Positions 3,317 to 17,485 of a stretch of 31,416 nucleotides of DNA are shown here, one piece after another (positions within the stretch are counted from its first letter, which is position 1; every line of letters starts with the position of its first letter). The notes under the pieces were generated by a model, which ran no database searches, had not been told where the DNA came from, and was given only the letters and a program-made list of their open reading frames with translations. The DNA is from a virus: positions 1 to 31,416 of IMG/VR virus record IMGVR_UViG_3300043571_000124, one strand, 5' to 3'. Made by a program: the position numbers and the translations under genes.

Positions 3317-4466
3317 AGTAATTACCTTTGTTTGGTGTTCCTATTGATTCCATTTCGTGATACCTAAAAGCGTCTATTGCGTGGTTAAAATTATCAATAG
3401 GTTTATTTAATTTAGCACCCGTTTTTTTATCTTTATCCCAAGAGTATTTTCTTAACTCGTTAATTAAATTAGTACTTGACTTTGTAATTAAATACTCTTG
3501 TTCCTGCATAACTTGAATACCGAAATTAATACTATCTGTTCCTTTACGGACTGCTCTTGCATTAATTCCAAATGCTTTTAATTCCGCTATTGATTTTGGT
3601 TCTGCACTATCACAATAACAATCTTCTTGCGTTTTAATAAACTTTGCTATCTGACTATTTGATAATTCTTTTTGGTAACATATTTCGTTTATGATTCTTT
3701 TATCATTCCATTTGTAAACTTCAACTATTGCGGTTGGATCATTTGAATATCCAAAGTCAATACCATAACCTAAAAGTCTTGCATCATTTGGTAATACATC
3801 AATAGTTTGCCAATTGTTAAAAATAACTCCCTCAAGTGTACCTATCTGCCCAAGTCCGTAAACATTGTACCAATTATCCCAATATGCAGAAGTCTTTGCT
3901 TTCTCTTTTGCTTTTAAAATGAAATTTAGAGCAGATTCAGGACAAGCTTCGTTATCTAAATAATTAACAATTATAAAATCAACATCGTTATCATCTTTTA
4001 AATCGGTGTGAAACCAAAACTCGTTGACAGGATTCCAATCCAAATAAACACCTTTTTTTGTTCTTGATGCCAATTCTGTATAAGCGTGAAATGTCATATT
4101 ATTAGCCTCATTCATATACAAATAGTCACGTCTTGCACCTCTTAATTTGCTATCATTATCAGCACTGAAAAATTCTATTTGTGAACCATTTGCGAAAGTG
4201 TATTTAAAATCGGTTGCATTCCATCGGCTATCAACAAAACGCCCTGTTTCAATCATTATTTTTTTAAAATCCTTCATTGCACCACGTTTAAGATGTGGTA
4301 TAGATTCAGCTACTACTGATATTTCAGTAAGTTTTGTTTTCGTAGCTATATCAATTAAAATAGGAAGCACCGCAAAAGTTTTACCTGCTGAAGTGCCTCC
4401 TTGTATTCCTTTGACAAATTTTGTCAAATTTAATATCTTATTTATTACCGTTGTTCGTATAAACAT
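3306..4466 (-). CDS. terL: Terminase large subunit, 386 aa
   Basis: The packaging motor ATPase/nuclease of the Terminase_3 type. It has Walker A GGTSAGKT at residues 23-30, Walker B YLYMNEA at about 115-121 with the catalytic Glu near 120, and an RNase H-like nuclease domain beginning GIDFGYSNDPT at about 235-245. Further acidic positions are in CDSAEP (near 286) and NHAIDAFRYH (Asp near 365). Length fits the family. I chose the ATG at 4466; an upstream in-frame TTG at 4511 would add 15 residues not expected in the family. terS lies upstream with about 117 bases between, and two small genes and a terminator follow. It acts at the portal to fill procapsids with concatemeric DNA. Confidence 0.95.
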   Translation of the reverse strand: MFIRTTVINKILNLTKFVKGIQGGTSAGKTFAVLPILIDIATKTKLTEISVVAESIPHLKRGAMKDFKKIMIETGRFVDSRWNATDFKYTFANGSQIEFFSADNDSKLRGARRDYLYMNEANNMTFHAYTELASRTKKGVYLDWNPVNEFWFHTDLKDDNDVDFIIVNYLDNEACPESALNFILKAKEKAKTSAYWDNWYNVYGLGQIGTLEGVIFNNWQTIDVLPNDARLLGYGIDFGYSNDPTAIVEVYKWNDKRIINEICYQKELSNSQIAKFIKTQEDCYCDSAEPKSIAELKAFGINARAVRKGTDSINFGIQVMQEQEYLITKSSTNLINELRKYSWDKDKKTGAKLNKPIDNFNHAIDAFRYHEMESIGTPNKGNYYVY

Positions 4467-6163: not shown

Positions 6164-6421
6164 TTACAAATTTATTTTTTCAAAACTAAAAAAATTATCA
6201 ACATAATCAATTTCAATATTAAAACCCTCTTGCAAATGTGATTTGTCGGTGTAACGATATTCTAAAACCCAATGCCAATGCTCTGACTTATCAATCCTTT
6301 TTGATGGTTTGCGAGTTTCTTTTACTACTCCGACAAGTCTAAATGGTCTTTGACTTGGTGCAGTTTGATTTCTTAAATCTGTGTATATCTTTGAACCTTT
6401 AACAATGTAAAATAATTTCAT
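6164..6421 (-). CDS. Hypothetical protein, 85 aa
   Basis: An 85-residue protein starting MKLFYIVKGSKIYTDL, with strands and no membrane segment. The ATG overlaps the stop of the ninG-like gene (ATGA). It is the last gene of the early leftward operon. The central part (FRLVGVVKETRKPS, HWHWVLEYRY) resembles no family I can name. Confidence 0.65.
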   Translation of the reverse strand: MKLFYIVKGSKIYTDLRNQTAPSQRPFRLVGVVKETRKPSKRIDKSEHWHWVLEYRYTDKSHLQEGFNIEIDYVDNFFSFEKINL

Positions 6422-6951
6422 TGTAATTCTTTTATCTTTTGTTTATAGATTGCAATAAGTTCTTTTACCTCATCTACGCTTAATTTAAGCGGTTTGTGTC
6501 GCATTTCTAATAGTTCGCTATATTCTATATCACTTATAACATTTTGAAGCCTTAAATCGTATTCTTTTACGTTTCCGTGTTTATGTAGGTTACATTCTAC
6601 GCATTGGCCGTGTACGTTGTTTTCATTAAATCGTAAGTTAGGATATGCTCCAACAGAAAAGAAATGCCCAGCGTGAAAAGTTTTACCTAATTGTTTACCA
6701 CATGAAATGCAAGGTTTAAGTTTGTCCCTTTGTCTTATATAAGTATTAAAAACTTTCTGCAAAATATTTAAGTAATCAGACTTTGACATTAATTTTATTT
6801 TGATTTCTTTTTTTTCTTGCTTCCAATTTTTAGCGTTTTGCTTTTTCATATACTCAACTGCACAAGATGGACTGCAAACTATTTGAGTGCTGTTTTTAGG
6901 TGTAAAATTATCTTTGCACACTAAACATTTCCTTTCGTATATTTTAAGCAT
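6418..6951 (-). CDS. ninG: NinG/Rap-like recombination nuclease, 177 aa
   Basis: The C-terminal half matches the lambda NinG (Rap) family: FHAGHFFSVGAYPNLRFNE near residues 91-109, then NNVHGQCVECNLHKHGN, an HNH-like zinc and His core. The N-terminus has zinc-finger cysteines (CLVC at 9-12, VCSPSC near 26-31) and a further PCISCG pair near 80-85. In lambda this structure-specific endonuclease acts on recombination intermediates with the Red system. Here it accompanies ERF and SSB genes in the same early transcript. It overlaps both neighbours by a few bases. Length fits the family. Confidence 0.85.
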   Translation of the reverse strand: MLKIYERKCLVCKDNFTPKNSTQIVCSPSCAVEYMKKQNAKNWKQEKKEIKIKLMSKSDYLNILQKVFNTYIRQRDKLKPCISCGKQLGKTFHAGHFFSVGAYPNLRFNENNVHGQCVECNLHKHGNVKEYDLRLQNVISDIEYSELLEMRHKPLKLSVDEVKELIAIYKQKIKELQ

Positions 6952-7290: not shown

Positions 7291-8139
7291 TTATTTTTTT
7301 ATAAATGAAAATATATGTTCTATTATTGGTAAAGTCCAACCATCGCCTAATAATGAACCTGCTTTTTTAGTTGAAAGTATGTCGCAATAATTATCAGGAA
7401 ATCCTTGAAGTCTGCACATTTCAATTTTATTTACAGTTCTTACTAATTCATTTTCTTTTATTAAAGTAATCATACCCGTAGTTTCATTTCTATGTATTAA
7501 ATATCTTTGAGTATTTGATTGACATTGGTTTGTTTTTAATGAAACGTGTTTTAAAGAACTTACTTCACCACTTGTAATTATATCTTTTAAAAGTATTCCT
7601 CTGTCTTTTGGTTGTGGTATATCAGTAATAATATCACAAAACATACCATCTTGTTTTGTTCTTATATTACTCCAATAGTATCTATCCCTTAATTGAGCAG
7701 TAACTAAACTGCTATTTATTTGTACTGGATAAACTCCTATTGATCGGCTAATTATACCTACATCCAATTTAGAAGCACTACCTACGTTTTCTTGCAGAAA
7801 TAATACATTAGGATTTAAAGATTTTATATGTTCTAATATTTCAACAAACGTAAAAAACAAACTTGATTTACTTCCATTTATTCCTGCACGTTTTCCAGCA
7901 GCAGATAAATCTTGACATGGAGAACCACTTAAAACTAAATCAATACTTTTCCAATCAATATTCCATTCACGCCACTTGGTAACATCTCCTACTTGGATAG
8001 TGTCAGGGAAATGATGTTGTGTTAATTCAATCGCATAAGGTTTTATTTCGCTTGAATAGTATTTATTTACTTTTATACCTACATTTTCAAGAGCTTGGCG
8101 ACCTGTGTTCATTCCGTTAAATAGTGATAGTACATTCAT
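7291..8139 (-). CDS. DNA (cytosine-5) methyltransferase, 282 aa
   Basis: It transfers a methyl group from S-adenosylmethionine to cytosine C5 in phage DNA. Motif I is LFNGMNTGRQAL at 6-17 and the motif II acid is Glu31. The catalytic PCQ loop (SGSPCQDLS, Cys75) is at 71-79, ENV at 117-119, QLRDRYYW at 149-156 and RLQGFPD at 243-249. A motif X variant GDGWTLPII starts at 265. The opening and the GDGW in place of GNSV resemble the DNMT3-like group of phage enzymes. The target-recognition region (about 165-235) is short, which suggests a short target. No restriction partner is nearby, so it probably protects the phage genome from host restriction. Confidence 0.92.
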   Translation of the reverse strand: MNVLSLFNGMNTGRQALENVGIKVNKYYSSEIKPYAIELTQHHFPDTIQVGDVTKWREWNIDWKSIDLVLSGSPCQDLSAAGKRAGINGSKSSLFFTFVEILEHIKSLNPNVLFLQENVGSASKLDVGIISRSIGVYPVQINSSLVTAQLRDRYYWSNIRTKQDGMFCDIITDIPQPKDRGILLKDIITSGEVSSLKHVSLKTNQCQSNTQRYLIHRNETTGMITLIKENELVRTVNKIEMCRLQGFPDNYCDILSTKKAGSLLGDGWTLPIIEHIFSFIKK

Positions 8140-8141
8140 AA

Positions 8142-8975
8142 TTAAAAGTTATTTATTAAGAAAGGTAAAGCATTTTTATTAATATCAAAACTAAAATCTT
8201 CAAATTTGTAACCACGTGAATAAGGATTCGTAACTAAAATACTGCCATCTTTATCAATAGTTAAATCAATAACGCTTTCTGCTTTCTTTAAAACGTAAGT
8301 TCCTAAATGTCCTAAAGGTTTATTTGTTTGCGGTGATTTGTGTATAACTGCTATAATGTGAATGTTATACTCGTAAGTCCATTTCATTAAATAATCACTC
8401 GCTTCTTTTGACATAACAATATCATTTGTATTTTCTACTAAATCAGCAATTCCATCTATTGCAATTAATTTAACAGGGTGTTTATACTTTTGTTGATTCT
8501 TTAAGCAATGGTCTATTAAAAGCAATCGTTCATTACTACTTAAATGCCTTGTAGCATAACCTTTGTAGTTTTCGTAATTACCACCTACCATTTCAATAAC
8601 ACGTCTAAAAGTTCTTTGAGTGTAGTATTTACCTTGTTCAGTATCAAAATCCAAAATAGTATAATCTTTATCTCTATGACTTTTAATATTTGGGAATAAC
8701 TCGTTTGAATTTCCACCTATGTAAGAACCTAAAAAAGCAGATTTTAAAAATGTCTTTTTTGATTTTGATGCAGCAACTATTGCAGAAAACTCTCCAGCAG
8801 TCATTACAGGAGTTGGATACATTGCACCTTTGTATTCGTGTGAACCGATTGAGATAAGAGTTTCAGGGTGTATCAATTCTAAAGACAAATCAATATAACA
8901 ATCCTTTTCTAATTTATTAAAATCAAACTCAACTTCGTTTGATAGGTTTTCTAATTGGTTAAAGTCTAAATTCAT
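8142..8975 (-). CDS. RecA/RepA-like replication ATPase, 277 aa
   Basis: A RecA-fold ATPase (AAA_25/RepA-like), probably the replicative helicase. The P-loop is VAASKSKKT at 67-75, lacking the usual glycine before Lys, as I recall for related phage and plasmid ATPases of Bacteroidota. Walker B is LIAIDG at 170-175. A sensor-like stretch IHIIAVIHKSP (205-215) is followed by GHLGTYVLKKAES, a hexamer-loop style segment. I chose the ATG at 8975; an upstream TTG at 8993 would overlap the previous gene. It follows the initiator and two small genes in the replication operon, which supports the role. No primase or TOPRIM domain is visible. Confidence 0.75.
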   Translation of the reverse strand: MNLDFNQLENLSNEVEFDFNKLEKDCYIDLSLELIHPETLISIGSHEYKGAMYPTPVMTAGEFSAIVAASKSKKTFLKSAFLGSYIGGNSNELFPNIKSHRDKDYTILDFDTEQGKYYTQRTFRRVIEMVGGNYENYKGYATRHLSSNERLLLIDHCLKNQQKYKHPVKLIAIDGIADLVENTNDIVMSKEASDYLMKWTYEYNIHIIAVIHKSPQTNKPLGHLGTYVLKKAESVIDLTIDKDGSILVTNPYSRGYKFEDFSFDINKNALPFLINNF

Positions 8976-8976
8976 A

Positions 8977-9405
8977 TTAAGAATAGTTTTCAATTTCTTT
9001 TAATAAGTCATTTGCCGAATTGTAAAATGATTTTTCTACTTGTTCTTTACTCCAAGCATTATCCATTTTTTTAAATACTTCTTTTGCATCAGTTTCATTT
9101 TGCAAAGTTATTAAATTTAAATCATAAGTTAATAATTCTATTTGTCTATCTAAAGGAATATTTAACTGAAACTTAAGTTCTTTAATTGCAAATTTAATGT
9201 CTTTGTAATGGTGTACATTCTGCCTTAAAAAAACGCATAGCAATTTAGCGTAAATTAAATTATCTTTTGTTAAATTCTTTGATGATTCGTTTATAAATTC
9301 ATCAAGTGATTTAAGTGCTTCAATATCCTCTTTGTAAATACGTTCTTTGTTACGTTTAAAAGCGTTAAATATCTTTGTTACGTATCGTTTCTGTTCCCAA
9401 CTCAT
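8977..9405 (-). CDS. Hypothetical replication-module protein, 142 aa
   Basis: A 142-residue helical, highly charged protein starting MSWEQKRYVTKIFNAF. The ATG overlaps the stop of the 97-aa gene (ATGA) and the stop lies one base before the ATPase start, so it is co-expressed with the putative helicase. A helicase loader or accessory subunit would fit the position, but no motif supports it. Confidence 0.6.
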   Translation of the reverse strand: MSWEQKRYVTKIFNAFKRNKERIYKEDIEALKSLDEFINESSKNLTKDNLIYAKLLCVFLRQNVHHYKDIKFAIKELKFQLNIPLDRQIELLTYDLNLITLQNETDAKEVFKKMDNAWSKEQVEKSFYNSANDLLKEIENYS

Positions 9406-9695
9406 ATGCCTAAATTTCTTTTGTTTTTACTTTCTAAATATTGTCTAATCCAAAAGCAAACTACTTGCGTACTTAATTTATAAGTTATTCCATATTCACC
9501 TAAAGCACCTTTTCTAATTGCTTTCTGCATATCCTGAACACTAATTCTACTAAATTCTGATTCAATATCTGAAATCATATTGCTTAAATCAAATGGAGTT
9601 GTGTTTGTACGTTCTAACGCTAATATTAAAGATTGTTTAATGTTAGAGTTTGGAGTTGTTAAGTCTGAATTGTCTTGTGATGTCGTTAAGTTCAT
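9402..9695 (-). CDS. Hypothetical replication-module protein, 97 aa
   Basis: It starts MNLTTSQDNSDL with a polar, disordered-looking N-terminus of about 20 residues, then a helical domain with DMQKAIRKGALGEYGITYKL. That segment is one I have seen in small genes beside replication initiators of Bacteroidota phages. It overlaps the 3' end of the initiator gene by 53 bases in another frame, an unusually long overlap for this genome. Function unknown; an adaptor between initiator and ATPase is conceivable. Confidence 0.6.
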   Translation of the reverse strand: MNLTTSQDNSDLTTPNSNIKQSLILALERTNTTPFDLSNMISDIESEFSRISVQDMQKAIRKGALGEYGITYKLSTQVVCFWIRQYLESKNKRNLGI

Positions 9696-10383
9696 TTTGT
9701 GATGGTATTAAGTTAGTATTTGTTATTTGTATTTCGTCGTTATAACGCTCTTGGTTTAAATAAGTAATAGCGTGTGGATGGTTATAATCTTTAAATGGTT
9801 TGTTGTTTATAAAAAAAGGCAAATGAAGTTCAATTTTTTGTTTTTGATGTTTAGTTAGCTTGTTAAATTTTTCTTCTGCTTTTTTCTTATTTGTTTTGTT
9901 TGGGTATAAACTCCAAAAGTCATCAAAAGAAAATTCAATAATTTCAGCATCTTGAATTTCTATAGTTGTATTATGTATATTGTTATTTGTATATTGTTTA
10001 TTTATACTATCAATGCTTTGTATAGTGCTTTTACTTTGCTTTGTTGCGTGCTTTATACTTGCTTTGTCAAGTGCTTTATCAAGTGCTTTATCAAAATTTG
10101 ATATAGCAATTATATTACTACTATATTGATTTTTTGATTTCTCAATCAATTCTATTAAACCAAATTCTACTAATTCATTTAAAGTTTGAATGTAAGTATT
10201 GTAACTTCTTATTCCAATTGCTTCTTTACTCATTTCTGTAGGTAGTCCAAATTTCTTTTTCCAACCTAATCTATTACAATGCTCTACTATAAATAAATAT
10301 AATGCACAATGATTAGGTTTAATTTTTTCAGGATTCTCAAAAGCGAAATCCCAAAAAGCTCGAGTTAATTTAAAATAATCCAT
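9643..10383 (-). CDS. Replication initiator / replisome organiser, 246 aa
   Basis: The domain plan resembles lambda O or DnaD-type phage initiators. An N-terminal winged-helix region (about 1-93; MDYFKLTRAFWDFAFENPEK, then EMSKEAIGIRSYNTYIQTLN) is followed by a low-complexity linker (about 96-145, KALDKALDKASIK). The C-terminal domain has FSFDDFWSLYPNKTNKKKAEE and HPHAITYLNQERYND, the FDxFWxxYPxK...HPxTYLNxxRW pattern of replication proteins. The DNA coding for the linker holds six iteron-like repeats, as in lambda O. It is the first gene after a promoter and structured leader. It would bind the origin and recruit the downstream ATPase. Confidence 0.75.
   Translation of the reverse strand: MDYFKLTRAFWDFAFENPEKIKPNHCALYLFIVEHCNRLGWKKKFGLPTEMSKEAIGIRSYNTYIQTLNELVEFGLIELIEKSKNQYSSNIIAISNFDKALDKALDKASIKHATKQSKSTIQSIDSINKQYTNNNIHNTTIEIQDAEIIEFSFDDFWSLYPNKTNKKKAEEKFNKLTKHQKQKIELHLPFFINNKPFKDYNHPHAITYLNQERYNDEIQITNTNLIPSQNELNDITRQFRLNNSKL
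10027..10096. repeat. Iteron-like repeats, candidate replication origin
   Basis: Six copies of a GCTTT-headed unit start at 10027, 10038, 10050, 10061, 10073 and 10085, at 11-12 base spacing, about one helical turn. The last three are closest to GCTTTATCAAGT. They lie in the initiator gene linker and are flanked on both sides by very AT-rich DNA (9955-10015 and 10095-10145). In lambda, origin iterons also lie inside the initiator gene O. The alternative is a purely protein-level repeat (KALD). Confidence 0.5.
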
Positions 10384-10390
10384 AATAATA

Positions 10391-10490
10391 TAAAAAGAGA
10401 AAACCCAACAGATGCACTACTATCTATTGGGTTTCTCGGTTACGTTAAAATTTTAACGTTAAACTTTTCCTGTCGGTAGTGCTTCGACTT
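10391..10490 (-). ncRNA. Structured leader RNA or small RNA with complementary hairpin loops
   Basis: Downstream of a TATATTTG box the minus-strand RNA can form three hairpins. Hairpin 1 has arms 10485-10488 and 10472-10475 (GUCG/CGAC). A self-complementary 18-mer spans 10442-10459 (ACGUUAAAAUUUUAACGU). Hairpin 3 is 13 bp, with arms 10422-10434 and 10401-10413. Seven loop bases of hairpin 1 (GCACUAC, 10476-10482) pair with seven of the eight loop bases of hairpin 3 (GUAGUGC, 10414-10420). The one imperfect pair of hairpin 3 is G-U only on the minus strand. A U-rich tail (UCUCUUUUUA) follows, so hairpin 3 could terminate transcription just before the initiator gene. An attenuator, a riboswitch-like element and a free small RNA are all possible. 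Confidence 0.55.
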
Positions 10491-10493
10491 ATG

Positions 10494-10501
10494 CAAATAT
10501 A
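10494..10501 (-). promoter_or_regulatory. Promoter -7 box TATATTTG, replication operon
   Basis: TATATTTG on the minus strand, a full match to TAnnTTTG, placed between the terminator of the recombination operon and the leader RNA. The predicted start near 10488-10490 coincides with the first base of hairpin 1. Several TTTG tracts lie just upstream, but none at an ideal -33 spacing. Confidence 0.65.
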
Positions 10502-10520
10502 CAAAAAAAACAATACAAAA

Positions 10521-10553
10521 AAGAAAACCGCTAATTTATTTTAGCGGTTTTTT
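10521..10553 (-). terminator. Terminator after the SSB gene
   Basis: An 11-bp perfect stem (AAAACCGCTAA / TTAGCGGTTTT, arms 10524-10534 and 10541-10551) with a 6-base loop and T-rich flanks on both strands. It sits 6 bases past the SSB stop and separates recombination from replication transcripts. Confidence 0.85.
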
Positions 10554-10558
10554 TAACA

Positions 10559-10846
10559 TTAAAAAGGTAAATCCGAAGCATCTACAATGTCAGCTTCTAC
10601 AACAGGTATTTCTAAAGGAGTTGATTCCTTAAGATTACCAAAGTAAAATTTATCTTCCTTTGTAGCACCTTTAAAATTGCTTTGAAAAGATGCACAGTTG
10701 CCGTATTTGTCAACCTCATCATTAACGTAAACTCTTACGTTTAAATAGATTTTACCATTTTCGTTTTTGGTAAATGCTTTGTTACCTGATTTCGCTTGTT
10801 CTAATAGTTTAGAAAAGTCAATTGAGCCATAAAAACTTTGTGCCAT
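10559..10846 (-). CDS. Single-stranded DNA-binding protein, 95 aa
   Basis: It starts MAQSFYGSIDFSKLLEQAKS and ends in the acidic tail DASDLPF, the SSB-type tip that docks partner proteins. The central part (GKIYLNVRVYVNDEVDKYGN, then FYFGNL) fits the compact phage SSB-like proteins that accompany ERF genes in Bacteroidota phages. At 95 residues it is shorter than bacterial SSB. It follows the ERF gene by 11 bases and ends directly at a terminator. It would coat ssDNA during annealing and replication. Confidence 0.8.
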   Translation of the reverse strand: MAQSFYGSIDFSKLLEQAKSGNKAFTKNENGKIYLNVRVYVNDEVDKYGNCASFQSNFKGATKEDKFYFGNLKESTPLEIPVVEADIVDASDLPF

Positions 10847-10857
10847 AATAAATAAAA

Positions 10858-11352
10858 TTAAAGATTAATAAATTCTTGTTGTTGTTGTGTTGTAATTGTG
10901 TATTTAGATTTAATTTGTTCCAACGAAAAGCCACCTTGTTTTGCCTTTAGTAAAATTTCAGTTGTTGCATTTGGTTTGTTTTGAACTGCTTTTTGTCCGT
11001 CGTCGTCATCTGCACCCACGCAAACAAAAGATTGCAATGCGTAACGTCTTGCGTAGCTTATTCCACTACCTTGTGCCTGTGCGTCGTTTTGTTTATTGTA
11101 GATGATTTCAGTAAGCGAGTCCATTAACTCGCCTGATTCGTGTAGTAAAATAGTTTTTACAAAGTTTTTACCATCAACATGTACAATTGGTTGCAGTACA
11201 CTAATTCCGTTTTCGTTTAACGTAGGTATAACTGCCTCACGGATTGCGTTTAAATCAGCGTATTTTGATTTAAAGAATGGATTTGTAGCACCTTTTTTAG
11301 GGTTGCTCATTTCAGATTGTGCTTTTAATAAAGCGGTTGCAATTTGTTTCAT
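10858..11352 (-). CDS. erf: ERF-family single-strand annealing protein, 164 aa
   Basis: An ERF superfamily recombinase. Residues 24-38 (NPFFKSKYADLNAIR) and the signature AQGSGISYARRYALQSFVCVG (about 93-113), followed by the acidic ADDDDG (114-119), are diagnostic. It anneals complementary single strands during phage recombination and circularisation, working with SSB and the NinG-like nuclease. The C-terminal 40 residues (KPNATTEILLKAKQGGFSLE) form a separate small helical tail. It has a probable own promoter at 11384-11391. Length fits short ERF proteins. Confidence 0.92.
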   Translation of the reverse strand: MKQIATALLKAQSEMSNPKKGATNPFFKSKYADLNAIREAVIPTLNENGISVLQPIVHVDGKNFVKTILLHESGELMDSLTEIIYNKQNDAQAQGSGISYARRYALQSFVCVGADDDDGQKAVQNKPNATTEILLKAKQGGFSLEQIKSKYTITTQQQQEFINL

Positions 11353-11383
11353 AAAGATAAGATATTTAATTGATTAAGATTTT

Positions 11384-11391
11384 CAAAGATA
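11384..11391 (-). promoter_or_regulatory. Promoter -7 box TATCTTTG, erf-ssb
   Basis: TATCTTTG on the minus strand with TTTG (10410s region excluded; the box is at 11410-11413) 18 bases upstream, close to Bacteroidota -33/-7 spacing. The start codon of erf is 32 bases downstream. It overlaps the end of the preceding gene closely. Confidence 0.5.
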
Positions 11392-11395
11392 AGAA

Positions 11396-11845
11396 TTAAA
11401 AGCTAATTGACAAAGAACTTTTGCGTATATTTTCGCTTACTTTAGGAACTTCAACTCCTTCTGAATCGTAAATCGTTTCATTTGATTTTTGTGCCACTTT
11501 TAAAAGCATTTCTCTATCTGTTAATGCTTGTTTAAGTTGTTGCCATTTCTCATCTTCTGAATAGTTAGGTGTACTTCCGCCATTGCGATAAGTTCCTTTG
11601 ATGCCGAATGCTTCGAAGTTTTCCGCTGGTAAACTATTTTTAAGTTCATCAGTTACAATTGATAAAACCTCGTTTACTCTAACCGCCTGTGCGAATAGTT
11701 CCATTTTATCCATTTCACCACTATCTAATAAGTCAGTAGTGAATTTCTTTGCAGAAAGTTGTAATTCTTTTTTGCTTGGTAAGAAGTTGTTAGTGTTAAC
11801 TTCTTGTTCTTGCATTAGCATTAATAAATTTTTAGATTTTCCCAT
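11396..11845 (-). CDS. Hypothetical recombination-module protein, 149 aa
   Basis: A helical 149-residue protein starting MGKSKNLLMLMQEQEVN. The C-terminal half (DEKWQQLKQALTDREMLLKV, then KSNETIYDSEGVEVP) looks like small proteins commonly encoded directly before ERF or Bet-type annealases; I do not know a biochemical role. It has a good promoter (11869-11876) 24 bases upstream of the ATG. An exonuclease is not supported by any motif. Confidence 0.65.
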   Translation of the reverse strand: MGKSKNLLMLMQEQEVNTNNFLPSKKELQLSAKKFTTDLLDSGEMDKMELFAQAVRVNEVLSIVTDELKNSLPAENFEAFGIKGTYRNGGSTPNYSEDEKWQQLKQALTDREMLLKVAQKSNETIYDSEGVEVPKVSENIRKSSLSISF

Positions 11846-11868
11846 AATTTTAAAGTTTTAAATTTTGT

Positions 11869-11876
11869 CAAAGATA
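11869..11876 (-). promoter_or_regulatory. Promoter -7 box TATCTTTG, recombination operon
   Basis: TATCTTTG on the minus strand with TTG (11897-11899) about 20 bases upstream, matching the Bacteroidota -33 TTG / -7 TAnnTTTG layout well. The flanking 11877-11891 is nearly pure A/T. It lies after the 42-aa gene stop. Confidence 0.6.
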
Positions 11877-11891
11877 TAAAATATTTTTTTA

Positions 11892-12020
11892 TTAATTCAA
11901 TTTATTTTTTTTATTATTAATTATTTTATGGTATACTTTATTAACCGATTCCTTATTCGTTCCCATTTTGTAGTAGTAATCTAAAACTCTTTTAATTCTT
12001 TGTAGTGGTGTTTGTTTCAT
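11892..12020 (-). CDS. Small basic protein, 42 aa
   Basis: A frame of 42 codons starting MKQTPLQRIKRVLDYYYKMG, two bases after the stop of the radical-SAM-like gene. It is strongly basic, with the C-terminal tail almost all Asn and Lys. It could be a small nucleic-acid binder or an inhibitor of a host function; nothing in the sequence decides. Confidence 0.55.
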   Translation of the reverse strand: MKQTPLQRIKRVLDYYYKMGTNKESVNKVYHKIINNKKNKLN

Positions 12021-12022
12021 AA

Positions 12023-12817
12023 TTATAATTTTATACCGCACATTTCTAAACAATTTTCACACTTGCCTAAAAAAGCTTTTTTGTTAAACTTACTTACTAA
12101 TGCTTTTGATTTCATAAATGCCATTTTTTTTACTTTAATAATTTCATTAACTACAAATTCGTTTTTACTTGATGGTCTAAATACAGTATCAATAATATTT
12201 TCATTTTTTAATAATTCATTTTGAATTAAAGACATTTTATATCCAATTTTATTATCAGTATTAAAATCAGCAGTAATAACTCTTAAAACTGATTTACAAT
12301 AAGGTTTTAAACGATTATATTCTTTTAATGAATTATCTATTAACTTTTTATTATCTAAAGCAGAAATAGAAGTATTAATACAAATATTATATTTTGATAT
12401 TTCTTTTAGTTGTAAATCTGTTAATGATTTCCAATGTCTTGTAATAATTACAATTTGTTTTTTTGAACTAATATCAAATAATGATAATTGACTATTTTCT
12501 TTTATTTGTTTTATAATATTTATTGTATGTTCCCAATTTTCAGATGGGTCACCAGTACAACCTATTCTTATAAAATCCATATCGATTTTTTCAATTTGTC
12601 TTACTATTTGTAATCTATGTGATTCATTTAAAAAATGTCTTTCAATTGATTTGCTAAAATCTATACCATATCTTTTAGCTGTTTTTAAAGCATAGCAATC
12701 ATTATAACAACCTTTTGGATTTTCTAAAAAACCACTTTCACAACCTTTTATAGTATCTAAATCCCAAATGCCCCTCTCATTTTTAGAGAGGGATATTATA
12801 TTTTTATAAGTTTTCAT
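12023..12817 (-). CDS. Radical-SAM-like cysteine protein of the DNA-modification block, 264 aa
   Basis: A probable TIM-barrel protein with strands DFIRIGCTGDPS (81-92), QIVIITRHW (121-129), ICINTSISALD (145-155), SVLRVITADFN (176-186) and IIDTVFRP (208-215). Cys26, Cys37 and Cys41 lie in an N-terminal GCESG...GCYNDCYA segment, like phage radical-SAM relatives (Gp37/Gp68 type) with CxxxCYA. The canonical CX3CX2C third cysteine is absent: residue 44 is Leu. A second cluster, CENCLEMC (253-260), ends the protein. The start overlaps the GNAT-methyltransferase stop (TAATG), implying joint work. I infer radical or iron-sulphur chemistry on a base or on a modification precursor; the substrate is unknown. 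Confidence 0.55.
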   Translation of the reverse strand: MKTYKNIISLSKNERGIWDLDTIKGCESGFLENPKGCYNDCYALKTAKRYGIDFSKSIERHFLNESHRLQIVRQIEKIDMDFIRIGCTGDPSENWEHTINIIKQIKENSQLSLFDISSKKQIVIITRHWKSLTDLQLKEISKYNICINTSISALDNKKLIDNSLKEYNRLKPYCKSVLRVITADFNTDNKIGYKMSLIQNELLKNENIIDTVFRPSSKNEFVVNEIIKVKKMAFMKSKALVSKFNKKAFLGKCENCLEMCGIKL

Positions 12818-14208
12818 TACAAACGCCCTACATTTGGATAAAGGTCTTTTATTTTTGAAGTATCACCTTTATAAAAAACATAAATACGTTGTTCGCATTT
12901 TGGATATTTACGACTATTTAATGTTTTCTTTGCGGTTGCACGTCTTGTAAATTCAGATTCTAAATAAATTATTTTATTATAAATATGCAAACCTTGTTCT
13001 TTGAAAAATAATTCATGTTCAGCATCGCTACCATAATAACCACCATCTTTATTTCTACTATCTCCTGTCATAACTACAAAAAAAGTATTATCATTCATTA
13101 CTGAAATAGCATTTTTATAACCCTCAAAAAGCATATCTCTAAATTGTTCATATGTGGATAATGAATTTAGTTCCCCTTTTGGTGCTTTTCCATCATAGTC
13201 TAAATATGTTTCAACTTTATAATATGGAGGACAAGAAAAAACTAAATCATATTTTTGTTTAGGTGTGAATTTTGAAGTATCAGATTTTAACCACTTTACA
13301 TTTGGAAAATCTTGACATAAAGCATTATTTGCATCACATTGATTTTGTCTAATTTCAGAAGATAAATATTCATAACCACAACCACCAGCAACAAACCCCA
13401 TTTGTACACCACCCCCAAAAGGATTATAAACTCTAACTCCATTTTTAGGCATAAACATACGCACAATAATTTCACACGCAGTAGGATCTAAAACAGATGC
13501 ATTTCCGTTTAAATCTTTTGTTTTATCTGTTAATATTTCACCATCAACTACTTTCTGTTTTGATAATACAACATTTGACATACCAGCTTTACCTTGCCAA
13601 CAACCCTCACGACTTGCAAATTTAGGATTTGGAATATTGTATTTTTTTCCAGCATCTTCTAACATTTCATTCCACGCTCTTTTTACCTTTAACCACTCAC
13701 CACTTGTAGAATTCCATAAATTAGTCATAGCCATATGACAAAGTCTTTTAACTCTTACTTGTTCTTCTTTTCCATAATAAATATAAGTAAAATCATTTTT
13801 AGCTAAATTAACTTTAAAACCAAGTGCTAAAAAAACTTTTGGATTTTCTAACTTATGTTTATTTGAAACTGTCATAACCATATGATAACCATATGTATTT
13901 TGGTCAATAATTTTTTGTACCATCATTGAATAAATTTCTTTATCTTCTTTGCCTGGATACATTGCTGACTGCAAAAGACAAAACTCACCAACTATATGAT
14001 TAACTTCATATGTAAAAAAACCACTAAACTCATCATCTATTTTTAATATAATAGCTGAATGTTTTTGCATATTTGCTCTTGCTGCTCTATAAGCAATTTT
14101 ATCAATTAAAGCTAATTCAGCTACTTTAGATTCATAACCTGAACCAATAACGCTATCAACTTGTATTAATTCAATTTTAGGTTCGAACATTTTTATTTGT
14201 TTTTTCAT
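12817..14208 (-). CDS. GNAT-like domain fused to CPPY-type DNA methyltransferase, 463 aa
   Basis: Two domains. Residues about 25-147 follow GNAT acyltransferase topology: strands AIILKIDDEFSGFFTYEV and EFCLLQSAMYPG, helix EIYSMMVQKIID, strand MVMTVSN, then PKVFLALGFK. The usual Q/RxxGxG loop is degenerate (YPGKEDKE). Residues about 235-447 are a Rossmann DNA methyltransferase with motif I VYNPFGGGVQMGFVAGG (260-276) before motif IV FSCPPYYKVETY (324-335), so Cys replaces the usual D/N/S of the PPY motif. Later VMTGDSRNKDGGYY (379-392) fits phage DNA methylases of the FSCPPY type. Phage Mu Mom is also GNAT-related and hypermodifies adenine, so a combined methylation/acyl-type modification is possible. 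Whether the GNAT part is active is uncertain. Confidence 0.75.
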   Translation of the reverse strand: MKKQIKMFEPKIELIQVDSVIGSGYESKVAELALIDKIAYRAARANMQKHSAIILKIDDEFSGFFTYEVNHIVGEFCLLQSAMYPGKEDKEIYSMMVQKIIDQNTYGYHMVMTVSNKHKLENPKVFLALGFKVNLAKNDFTYIYYGKEEQVRVKRLCHMAMTNLWNSTSGEWLKVKRAWNEMLEDAGKKYNIPNPKFASREGCWQGKAGMSNVVLSKQKVVDGEILTDKTKDLNGNASVLDPTACEIIVRMFMPKNGVRVYNPFGGGVQMGFVAGGCGYEYLSSEIRQNQCDANNALCQDFPNVKWLKSDTSKFTPKQKYDLVFSCPPYYKVETYLDYDGKAPKGELNSLSTYEQFRDMLFEGYKNAISVMNDNTFFVVMTGDSRNKDGGYYGSDAEHELFFKEQGLHIYNKIIYLESEFTRRATAKKTLNSRKYPKCEQRIYVFYKGDTSKIKDLYPNVGRL

Positions 14209-14358: not shown

Positions 14359-14421
14359 GTGTAAAATTTTTTACGTTATTAAGGTTAAAAATAGCGGACA
14401 CTATATCCGCTTTGTTGAGTA

Positions 14422-14429
14422 CAAATATA
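14422..14429 (-). promoter_or_regulatory. Promoter -7 box TATATTTG, DNA-modification operon
   Basis: TATATTTG on the minus strand, immediately after the stop of the 52-aa gene (14435) and followed by a 64-base leader to the small HTH gene. It makes the modification block an independently controlled unit. Confidence 0.55.
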
Positions 14430-16888: not shown

Positions 16889-16990
16889 ATTGTTTGATTT
16901 TGATATTGCAAATGTATTACGAAAAAACTTTATAAAAAATTTTTTTATTAAAAAAGTTATTTATATATTTGCAGAAATCAAAACTTAATT
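16889..16990. promoter_or_regulatory. Divergent early control region
   Basis: A 102-base AT-rich gap between divergent genes. Leftward -7 box TACATTTG lies at 16909-16916 (minus strand) and rightward TATATTTG at 16964-16971 (plus strand). Between them is a near-palindromic A/T stretch (AACTTT at 16926-16931 against AAAGTT at 16953-16958), a possible operator. The small HTH protein encoded at 17279-17485 is a candidate ligand. Confidence 0.6.
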
Positions 16991-17182
16991 ATGAAAATCA
17001 CAACAGAAACAAAAGAGCAAATGTACATCACCGAGTTTAAAAATTCAGATGTATCTTTAGAACAATTATTTAATGCGTTTAAATCACACCTTGTGGCATT
17101 AACTTGGCATAATAATACAATAGAACAATATATAATAGAATGGTCAGATGAATTAAAAGAAAATAACAATGAAGATAATTGA
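16991..17182 (+). CDS. Rightward small acidic protein, 63 aa
   Basis: MKITTETKEQMYITEFKNSD: a 63-residue acidic protein with the helix DVSLEQLFNAFKSHLVALTW. It is the first of three rightward genes, 20 bases after the plus-strand TATATTTG box. It has no membrane segment or known motif. Its acidic character and position beside an early switch would suit an anti-host or regulatory protein, without direct evidence. Confidence 0.7.
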   Translation: MKITTETKEQMYITEFKNSDVSLEQLFNAFKSHLVALTWHNNTIEQYIIEWSDELKENNNEDN

Positions 17183-17281
17183 ATTTTTTAAACAACTATT
17201 TTGTAAGCACCGATGGACTTACAACTACAAAAAGAAGTATTACCGATGCAAAGATTGTCACACTAAATTAAAGAAGATATG
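17168..17281 (+). CDS. Zinc-finger-like micropeptide, 37 aa
   Basis: A 37-residue frame beginning MKIIEFFKQLFCKHRW, with CKH at 12-14 and CKDCH at 27-31: a CxH...CxxCH zinc-ribbon-like pattern. Highly basic. It overlaps the 63-aa gene by 15 bases and the next gene by ATGA. Very short CxHxW...C..C proteins recur in Bacteroidota phages. Probably binds zinc and possibly nucleic acid. Confidence 0.6.
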
Positions 17282-17485
17282 AACATATTAGAAAAACTAA
17301 TTTCAGAAAATGCAAAAAATAAAAATCAATTCGCTAAACTTGTAGGTGAAACACCGCAAACAATTAACGCACAGGTAAAGTCAAAAAATCCATTATTACC
17401 AGCGTATAATTACGCAAAGATTTTAGGTAAAAAAGAATTGAAAGGAAATGCTAACGGAATAGAAATACATTTGATATTTGGTTAA
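17279..17485 (+). CDS. Cro-like small HTH regulator, 68 aa
   Basis: MNILEKLISENAKNKNQFAK: a 68-residue protein with a helix-turn-helix at about 14-37 (KNQFAKLVGETPQTINAQVK), as in small Cro/C1-type repressors. It ends the rightward operon, overlapping the zinc-finger gene (ATGA) and followed by a bidirectional terminator. A role in controlling the divergent promoters is inferred. No protease or dimerisation domain like a lambda CI C-terminal part is present. Confidence 0.7.
   Translation: MNILEKLISENAKNKNQFAKLVGETPQTINAQVKSKNPLLPAYNYAKILGKKELKGNANGIEIHLIFG

Follow-up and report, generated by a model that had tools for sequence, protein, structure and literature searches.

A kissing-loop leader RNA ahead of phage replication genes: covariation of the loop-loop contact and a possible role in attenuation

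In the kissing complex of ColE1 RNA I and RNA II, antisense transcripts meet in an intermolecular contact through 7-nt loops that are paired almost completely. The pT181-type attenuators combine the leader of an initiator mRNA, a terminator ahead of the gene and kissing hairpins as the first contact (PMC4878617). In the case of P4, the CI RNA derives from the leader of the replication operon; its pairing partners are seqA and seqC, and it halts the transcription of replication genes (PMC4825925). The put RNA of HK022 is promoter-proximal and acts in cis on transcription (PMC9378689), and for HMP_4078, a palindromic element of 109 bp from the human microbiome, a location in Bacteroidetes close to integrase and D5 N-terminal domains has been described (PMC8040213).

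The leader analyzed here lies on the minus strand of a 31.4-kb virus record, which we refer to as a whole as the window. A sequence-only reading had placed there a TATATTTG box, two hairpins, a self-complementary 18-mer and a 7-base match between the two loops, and every coordinate was found to be right. In the direction of transcription, the TATATTTG box (10494..10501), a -7 box of the Bacteroidetes promoter type (consensus in PMC7366714), is followed by hairpin P1 (10472..10488), with a GUCG/CGAC stem and a 9-nt loop that carries the kissing bases L1 (GCACUAC, 10476..10482). Next come P2 (10442..10459), a hairpin formed by the 18-mer ACGUUAAAAUUUUAACGU, and P3 (10397..10437, GAGAAACCC...GGGUUUUCUC), a long terminator-like hairpin whose loop carries L3 (GUAGUGC, 10414..10420), the exact complement of L1. 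A U tract (TTTTT, 10392..10396) separates P3 from the first gene, which encodes a replication initiation protein (9643..10383, ATG at 10381-10383; PHROG 270, E 4e-17). The 13-bp core of P3, with its single U-G pair, is as had been described, but the stem goes further, through GAG/CUC and one bulged U. Likewise the 18-mer, a 100% opposite-strand self-match, is present, but turned out to be a third covarying hairpin. The folding energy of the leader strand is -29.9 kcal/mol, while shuffled sequences give -16.4 +/- 3.1 (z -4.4). A 7-base loop match in one sequence alone is not rare: a loose version of the kissing design was passed by 9.5% of the shuffles of the window leader.

We then compared homologous leaders. 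A scan with exact 20-mers led to three viral contigs in which the same leader stood ahead of other genes, and two pattern scans on the P3 base (GAGAAACCC...GGGNTTTCTC and CGACAAANCC...GGNNTTTTGTC) gave many more leaders. A covariance model was built from 14 leaders; it included P1, P2 and P3 and left out the loop-loop contact. This model gathered and aligned 52 leaders on uncultivated-virus contigs. Against model R1, in which the kiss is not represented, the window leader scored 90.3 bits (E 1e-15) and showed 7 of 7 kiss pairs; leaders that combine an R1 score with an intact 7-bp L1-L3 kiss are called type I kissing leaders. Weak extra model matches in the records G020, G021 and G028 were plain terminators. 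Since the earliest list of homologues had been selected for a 7-base match, its 100% kiss was partly built in; later searches with kiss-blind models brought further leaders, and the kiss was kept in all of these. The invariance of the P3 base is also partly a matter of ascertainment, and the 52 leaders do not amount to 52 independent events, as several loci come from related phages.

Covariation of the loop-loop pairs had been set beforehand as a test on which the reading could fail, and the 52 leaders passed it. The 7-bp L1-L3 contact was present in all of them, formed by ten different loop pairs: GCACUAC/GUAGUGC in 16 leaders, CUACUAC/GUAGUAG in 9, CCAUCAC/GUGAUGG in 8, GCUCAAC/GUUGAGC in 6, GCAUCAC/GUGAUGC in 5, CCACUAC/GUAGUGG in 4, and GCUCUAC, CCACCAC, CUCUCAC and CCACUGC in one leader each, the CCACUGC pair including one G-U. 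Outside the alignment, leader L156 has an eleventh, divergent pair, UGUGCGGC/GCCGCACA. By pairing energy, the ten types are mostly orthogonal. Because 52 of 52 homologous leaders keep 7 bp with ten loop pairs, the kiss goes beyond chance complementarity, which could be ruled out. An eighth kiss pair occurs in 0/52 leaders on the 3' side and in 4/52 on the 5' side; a long-range helix in place of a loop-loop contact was rejected, as complementarity ends at the loop edges. Double changes were observed at 5 of the 7 kiss positions, at all four pairs of P1 (whose stem has at least 4 bp around the loop in 52/52 leaders) and at all four counted pairs of P2, where 88% of cells are paired. In P3, 99.8-100% of cells are paired and 11 of 17 counted pairs show double changes; variants at its base covary as well, from GAG/CUC to GAC/GUC, and with GCC/GGC or UCC/GGA for CCC/GGG. 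Over the whole structure we counted 343 double-changed cells against 106 in shuffles, and none of 500 shuffles reached the score, a control that ignores relatedness among the 52 leaders. Slid alignments paired at 40-48%, against 96% for the true register.

The alignment contained 54 G-U cells and 9 A-C cells. This excess indicates selection on the transcribed strand as RNA, a conclusion drawn earlier from the one G-U in the stem and now borne out across the family, and it rules out a structure of the DNA or of the opposite strand. Together with the fold and the covariation, it agrees with the proposal of a structured leader RNA on the strand of the initiator. The TAnnTTTG box is conserved upstream of 50 of the 52 leaders, at 9-11 nt between the end of the box and the first kissing base, and near-boxes are found in the other two. 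If the usual spacing of Bacteroidetes -7 promoters holds, P1 would be situated at the extreme 5' end of the RNA. In the window, a terminator-like site of an upstream SSB-like gene (10524..10551, minus strand; 11 pairs and a T-rich tail) lies just before the leader promoter. This site and the TATATTTG box indicate that the leader opens its own transcription unit. On the plus strand, positions 9370-12829 hold no TAnnTTTG box, the one box type searched for, and an antisense ctRNA was rejected on this ground. There is no conserved leader ORF in the 52-leader family, which rules out a leader peptide and argues against ribosome-mediated attenuation. Similar boxes occur elsewhere in the window. At 14393-14429, a terminator-like hairpin (AGCGGATATAGTGTCCGCT and ATTTTT) comes no more than about 10 nt after a TATATTTG box, so that a promoter at this place would give an RNA of only about 30 nt. 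Two divergent TAnnTTTG boxes are located at 16916 (minus) and 16964 (plus), in the region 16916-17485; the plus side leads to two small genes, the only clear plus-strand genes of the window, of which the second (17279-17485) resembles, by eye, a Cro-like helix-turn-helix protein.

At the other end of the leader, P3 is followed in the 52 leaders by (A/U)UUUU, then by an A-rich stretch and the ATG. T occupies positions 2-5 after P3 at 87-100%, compared with 23-41% in ordinary regions upstream of an ATG. Behind the full stem, the U tract comprises just 4-5 U, and its first base is A in half of the leaders. That the final hairpin is terminator-like, as had been suggested, was confirmed by the terminator-scan score and by the conserved U tract.

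The leader had been tied to expression of the initiator; it is not specific to this gene, as leaders also precede many different first genes. These were assigned by eye from translations outside the window. They comprise three related initiators (window, L008 and L007) and other initiator-like proteins, large primase/helicase-like proteins, DEAD-type helicases, DNA methylases, GIY-YIG and HNH endonucleases, and small unknown proteins. As the first genes differ, autoregulation by the first gene product is unlikely, and an initiator-specific form of it can be ruled out; since different replication genes come next, the leader appears to act on the transcript and not via one product. In four loci (L128, L146, L098 and L131) a GIY-YIG endonuclease-like gene stands directly behind the leader, an arrangement that would result if homing genes inserted themselves behind the leader, ahead of the operon. 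In each of two phages there are two leaders whose kissing pairs do not match: L084 (leaders at 262-361 and 3351-3450) has GCACUAC and CUACUAC, its second leader standing ahead of an HNH-like gene, and L255 (leaders at 6641-6748 and 8339-8436) has CUACUAC and CCAUCAC, one of its leaders again standing ahead of an HNH-like gene. These differing pairs alone do not prove selection for orthogonality, because with ten loop types two random leaders would usually differ. In the window, the upstream neighbours (10559-11352) are a small SSB-like gene, recognized by eye with a PHROG without function, and an Erf-like gene. The initiator gene and the next ORF share 53 bases (9643-9695), and a NinG homologue (PF05766, E 2e-47) lies further down the operon at 6418-6951.

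The large terminase of the window shares 49% identity with its counterpart in Flavobacterium psychrophilum phages, and the leader-carrying phages probably infect Bacteroidetes. A tyrosine integrase (PF00589) was found in 0 of 28 records, which may be incomplete, and in 14 of 14 control genomes; as far as this one enzyme tells in such records, the phages look virulent. Among 50,697 records of isolated phages, blastn gave no convincing relative. Flavobacterium phage Fpv5 showed no convincing match, and the gene of the closest named initiator, from Polaribacter phage Danklef, overlaps the preceding gene and has no leader. A host-borne RNA was also set aside: no match was obtained in 395 Bacteroidota genomes, a weak test in which few candidates per genome were scored, and nine exact-pattern matches in 84,980 genomes were not convincing by the model (best E 0.027, for the P3 part only).

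The earlier statement that the RNA belongs to no known riboswitch class agreed with a search of Rfam 15, in which the window and nine further loci, of which seven or more carry type I or sister leaders, gave no match above the gathering cut-off and only weak sub-threshold ones; a known riboswitch or sRNA was rejected accordingly. No description of the leader was found in the open papers searched. With the P4 immunity leader and the related IsrK RNA of Gifsy-1, the leader has in common its place at the head of a phage replication operon and complementary stretches in loops; no match to Rfam isrK was above threshold. The output in P4 is premature termination (PMC4825925), which would only be the predicted output here. 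Moreover, the P4 CI RNA undergoes processing and exerts its effect in trans in lysogens, the P4 type being a temperate element with an integrase, whereas here the complement is part of the same hairpin pair, in cis, in phages whose records, possibly incomplete, lack the tyrosine integrase. The pT181 attenuators are the nearest plasmid analogue, with the leader of a replication initiator mRNA and kissing hairpins in both cases. They need a separate antisense RNA, for which no promoter of the TAnnTTTG type was seen in the stretch searched, while in the leader the partner is built into the same RNA. The same difference separates the leader from ColE1, whose kiss is intermolecular, although both use almost fully paired 7-nt loops. 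HK022 put is likewise a promoter-proximal phage RNA, but it has two stem-loops without a kiss or an end terminator and targets distant terminators; the leader has three hairpins and a kiss. HMP_4078, compared by its description only, resembles the leader in being palindromic, from Bacteroidetes and near phage replication domains, and differs in lying near integrases without a predicted terminator; it could be related to the leader family. We file the leader as a new RNA family that would work like a cis attenuator and is not a member of the P4, pT181 or put groups.

Related initiators in other phages are preceded by leaders that cannot be aligned with the window leader. In these, a stretch of 6-9 complementary bases links the loop of a 5' hairpin with that of a terminator-like hairpin directly ahead of the ATG. 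Sister leaders with this plan were found in L003, L005, L009, L022, L031, L047, L073 and L077, and in L234 from a separate scan. An automatic test detected the plan in 13 of 23 leaders, where dinucleotide shuffles would predict 1.26; the 23 include the window leader, L008 and three pattern-picked leaders (one of which, L234, passes), and among the 13, L011 and L029 are doubtful in detail. Four leaders failed narrowly, L007 by a G-U, and L004, L224 and L240 by a weak P1. Textbook terminators are present in L003, L031 and L073. In L004 (~3905-4000), L009 (~1190-1289), L224 (~560-650) and L240 (~7632-7725), CUCACUA is found twice, at the 5' end and again directly upstream of the ATG, and the loop UAGUGAG lies between the copies; L011 has a similar double complement with AAACCGC. 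The doubled complement in these five leaders could be an explicit switch between two partners. The comparison suggests that evolution preserves the topology of these leaders and not their sequence, which would explain why homology searches missed the class.

Our preferred reading, to which we give a probability of roughly 0.45, is that of an attenuator that lies close to the promoter, acts in cis and heads the phage replication operon; the kiss would tune the folding of the terminator-like P3. Attenuation is suggested by the terminator-like hairpin that, with its short conserved U tract, lies between promoter and ATG. The RNA would begin within a few bases of P1, and P1 and P2 would fold first. 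When the 5' half and the loop of P3 leave the RNA polymerase, L3 may pair with the waiting L1 (7 bp), after which the 3' half of P3 would close the terminator-like hairpin just ahead of the U tract and the ATG. Folds of the growing transcript, in a nested folding model only, follow this order: L1 and L3 pair once the P3 loop is out, and P3 closes afterwards. In this model the order makes the kiss a plausible rate setter, by which the speed or stability of P3 would determine the fraction of polymerases stopping before the first replication gene. Because the kiss and a formed P3 are compatible, an antiterminator role is not obvious, and the kiss would somewhat more likely promote termination by P3 than hinder it. 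A phage or host factor may shift the balance. In favour of the attenuator are the covariation of P1, P2, P3 and the kiss, the constant distance from the promoter, the U tract, the terminators of sister leaders and the diversity of the replication genes; against it is the U tract of type I leaders, so short and in half of them starting with A.

This short tract, together with the extended stem kept by covariation (GAG/CUC to GAC/GUC), would suit a 5' cap in which P1, the kiss and P3 shield the mRNA from nucleases and set the ATG in an open A-rich stretch, with a role in stability or translation and no termination at P3. The position of P1 at the 5' end and the A-rich stretch ahead of the ATG are also as such a cap would have them, but a conserved U tract is not expected of a stability element and sister leaders have strong terminators, so we regard this explanation as rather unlikely. 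It is unlikely too that the terminated leader, of about 100 nt, pairs loop-to-loop in trans with new leader transcripts and forces their termination, as a feedback or superinfection brake in the manner of the P4 CI RNA. That RNA pairs with two short stretches of its own leader (PMC4825925), the kissing pairs form ten mostly orthogonal types, and some sister leaders carry the loop complement both before and after the loop. However, every leader satisfies its own loop in cis, and since a tyrosine integrase is found in none of the 28 records, lysogenic immunity as in P4 is not expected.

Two further proposals fit less well. Like putL of HK022, which lies just downstream of its own promoter (PMC9378689), the leader is promoter-proximal, about 100 nt long, made of stem-loops and indifferent to the next gene; the nascent RNA might thus bind the polymerase so that later terminators of the replication operon are ignored. 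Yet the element itself ends in a terminator-like hairpin, put needs two stem-loops where the leader has three hairpins and a kiss, the genes lie close together between the initiator and 6164, and no terminator-like site was detected when the coding strand was scanned from below the leader as far as 6000, which makes put-like antitermination improbable. We hold it for highly improbable that the palindromes act in DNA as a replication origin, or that the RNA primes replication like ColE1 RNA II: in many phages the leader has replication genes beside it, and a single 7-8-mer recurs in direct and inverted orientation within some sister leaders, but the 54 G-U against 9 A-C cells and the three covarying hairpins speak for selection on transcribed RNA, two phages carry two copies, and there is no GC-skew switch at 10.4 kb.

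The promoter-proximal attenuator thus remains our preferred reading of an RNA family that is undescribed as far as Rfam and the open papers searched go, and for which the proof of a kissing-loop tertiary contact by covariation is unusually clean. The ten natural, mostly orthogonal loop pairs make the kiss testable by loop swaps and offer parts for designed attenuators. The leader occupies the point from which the replication genes are controlled, and little regulation at the RNA level has been described for these phages. It is doubtful, although conceivable, that these leaders belong to a widespread class of phage leaders that cannot be aligned and is defined by topology only, with a 5' hairpin, located at +1, that kisses the loop of the terminator ahead of the first replication gene, and whose terminated leaders act in trans via interchangeable loop codes of 7-9 nt. 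If true, this would represent an RNA-only device of virulent Bacteroidetes phages for timing and cross-phage exclusion.
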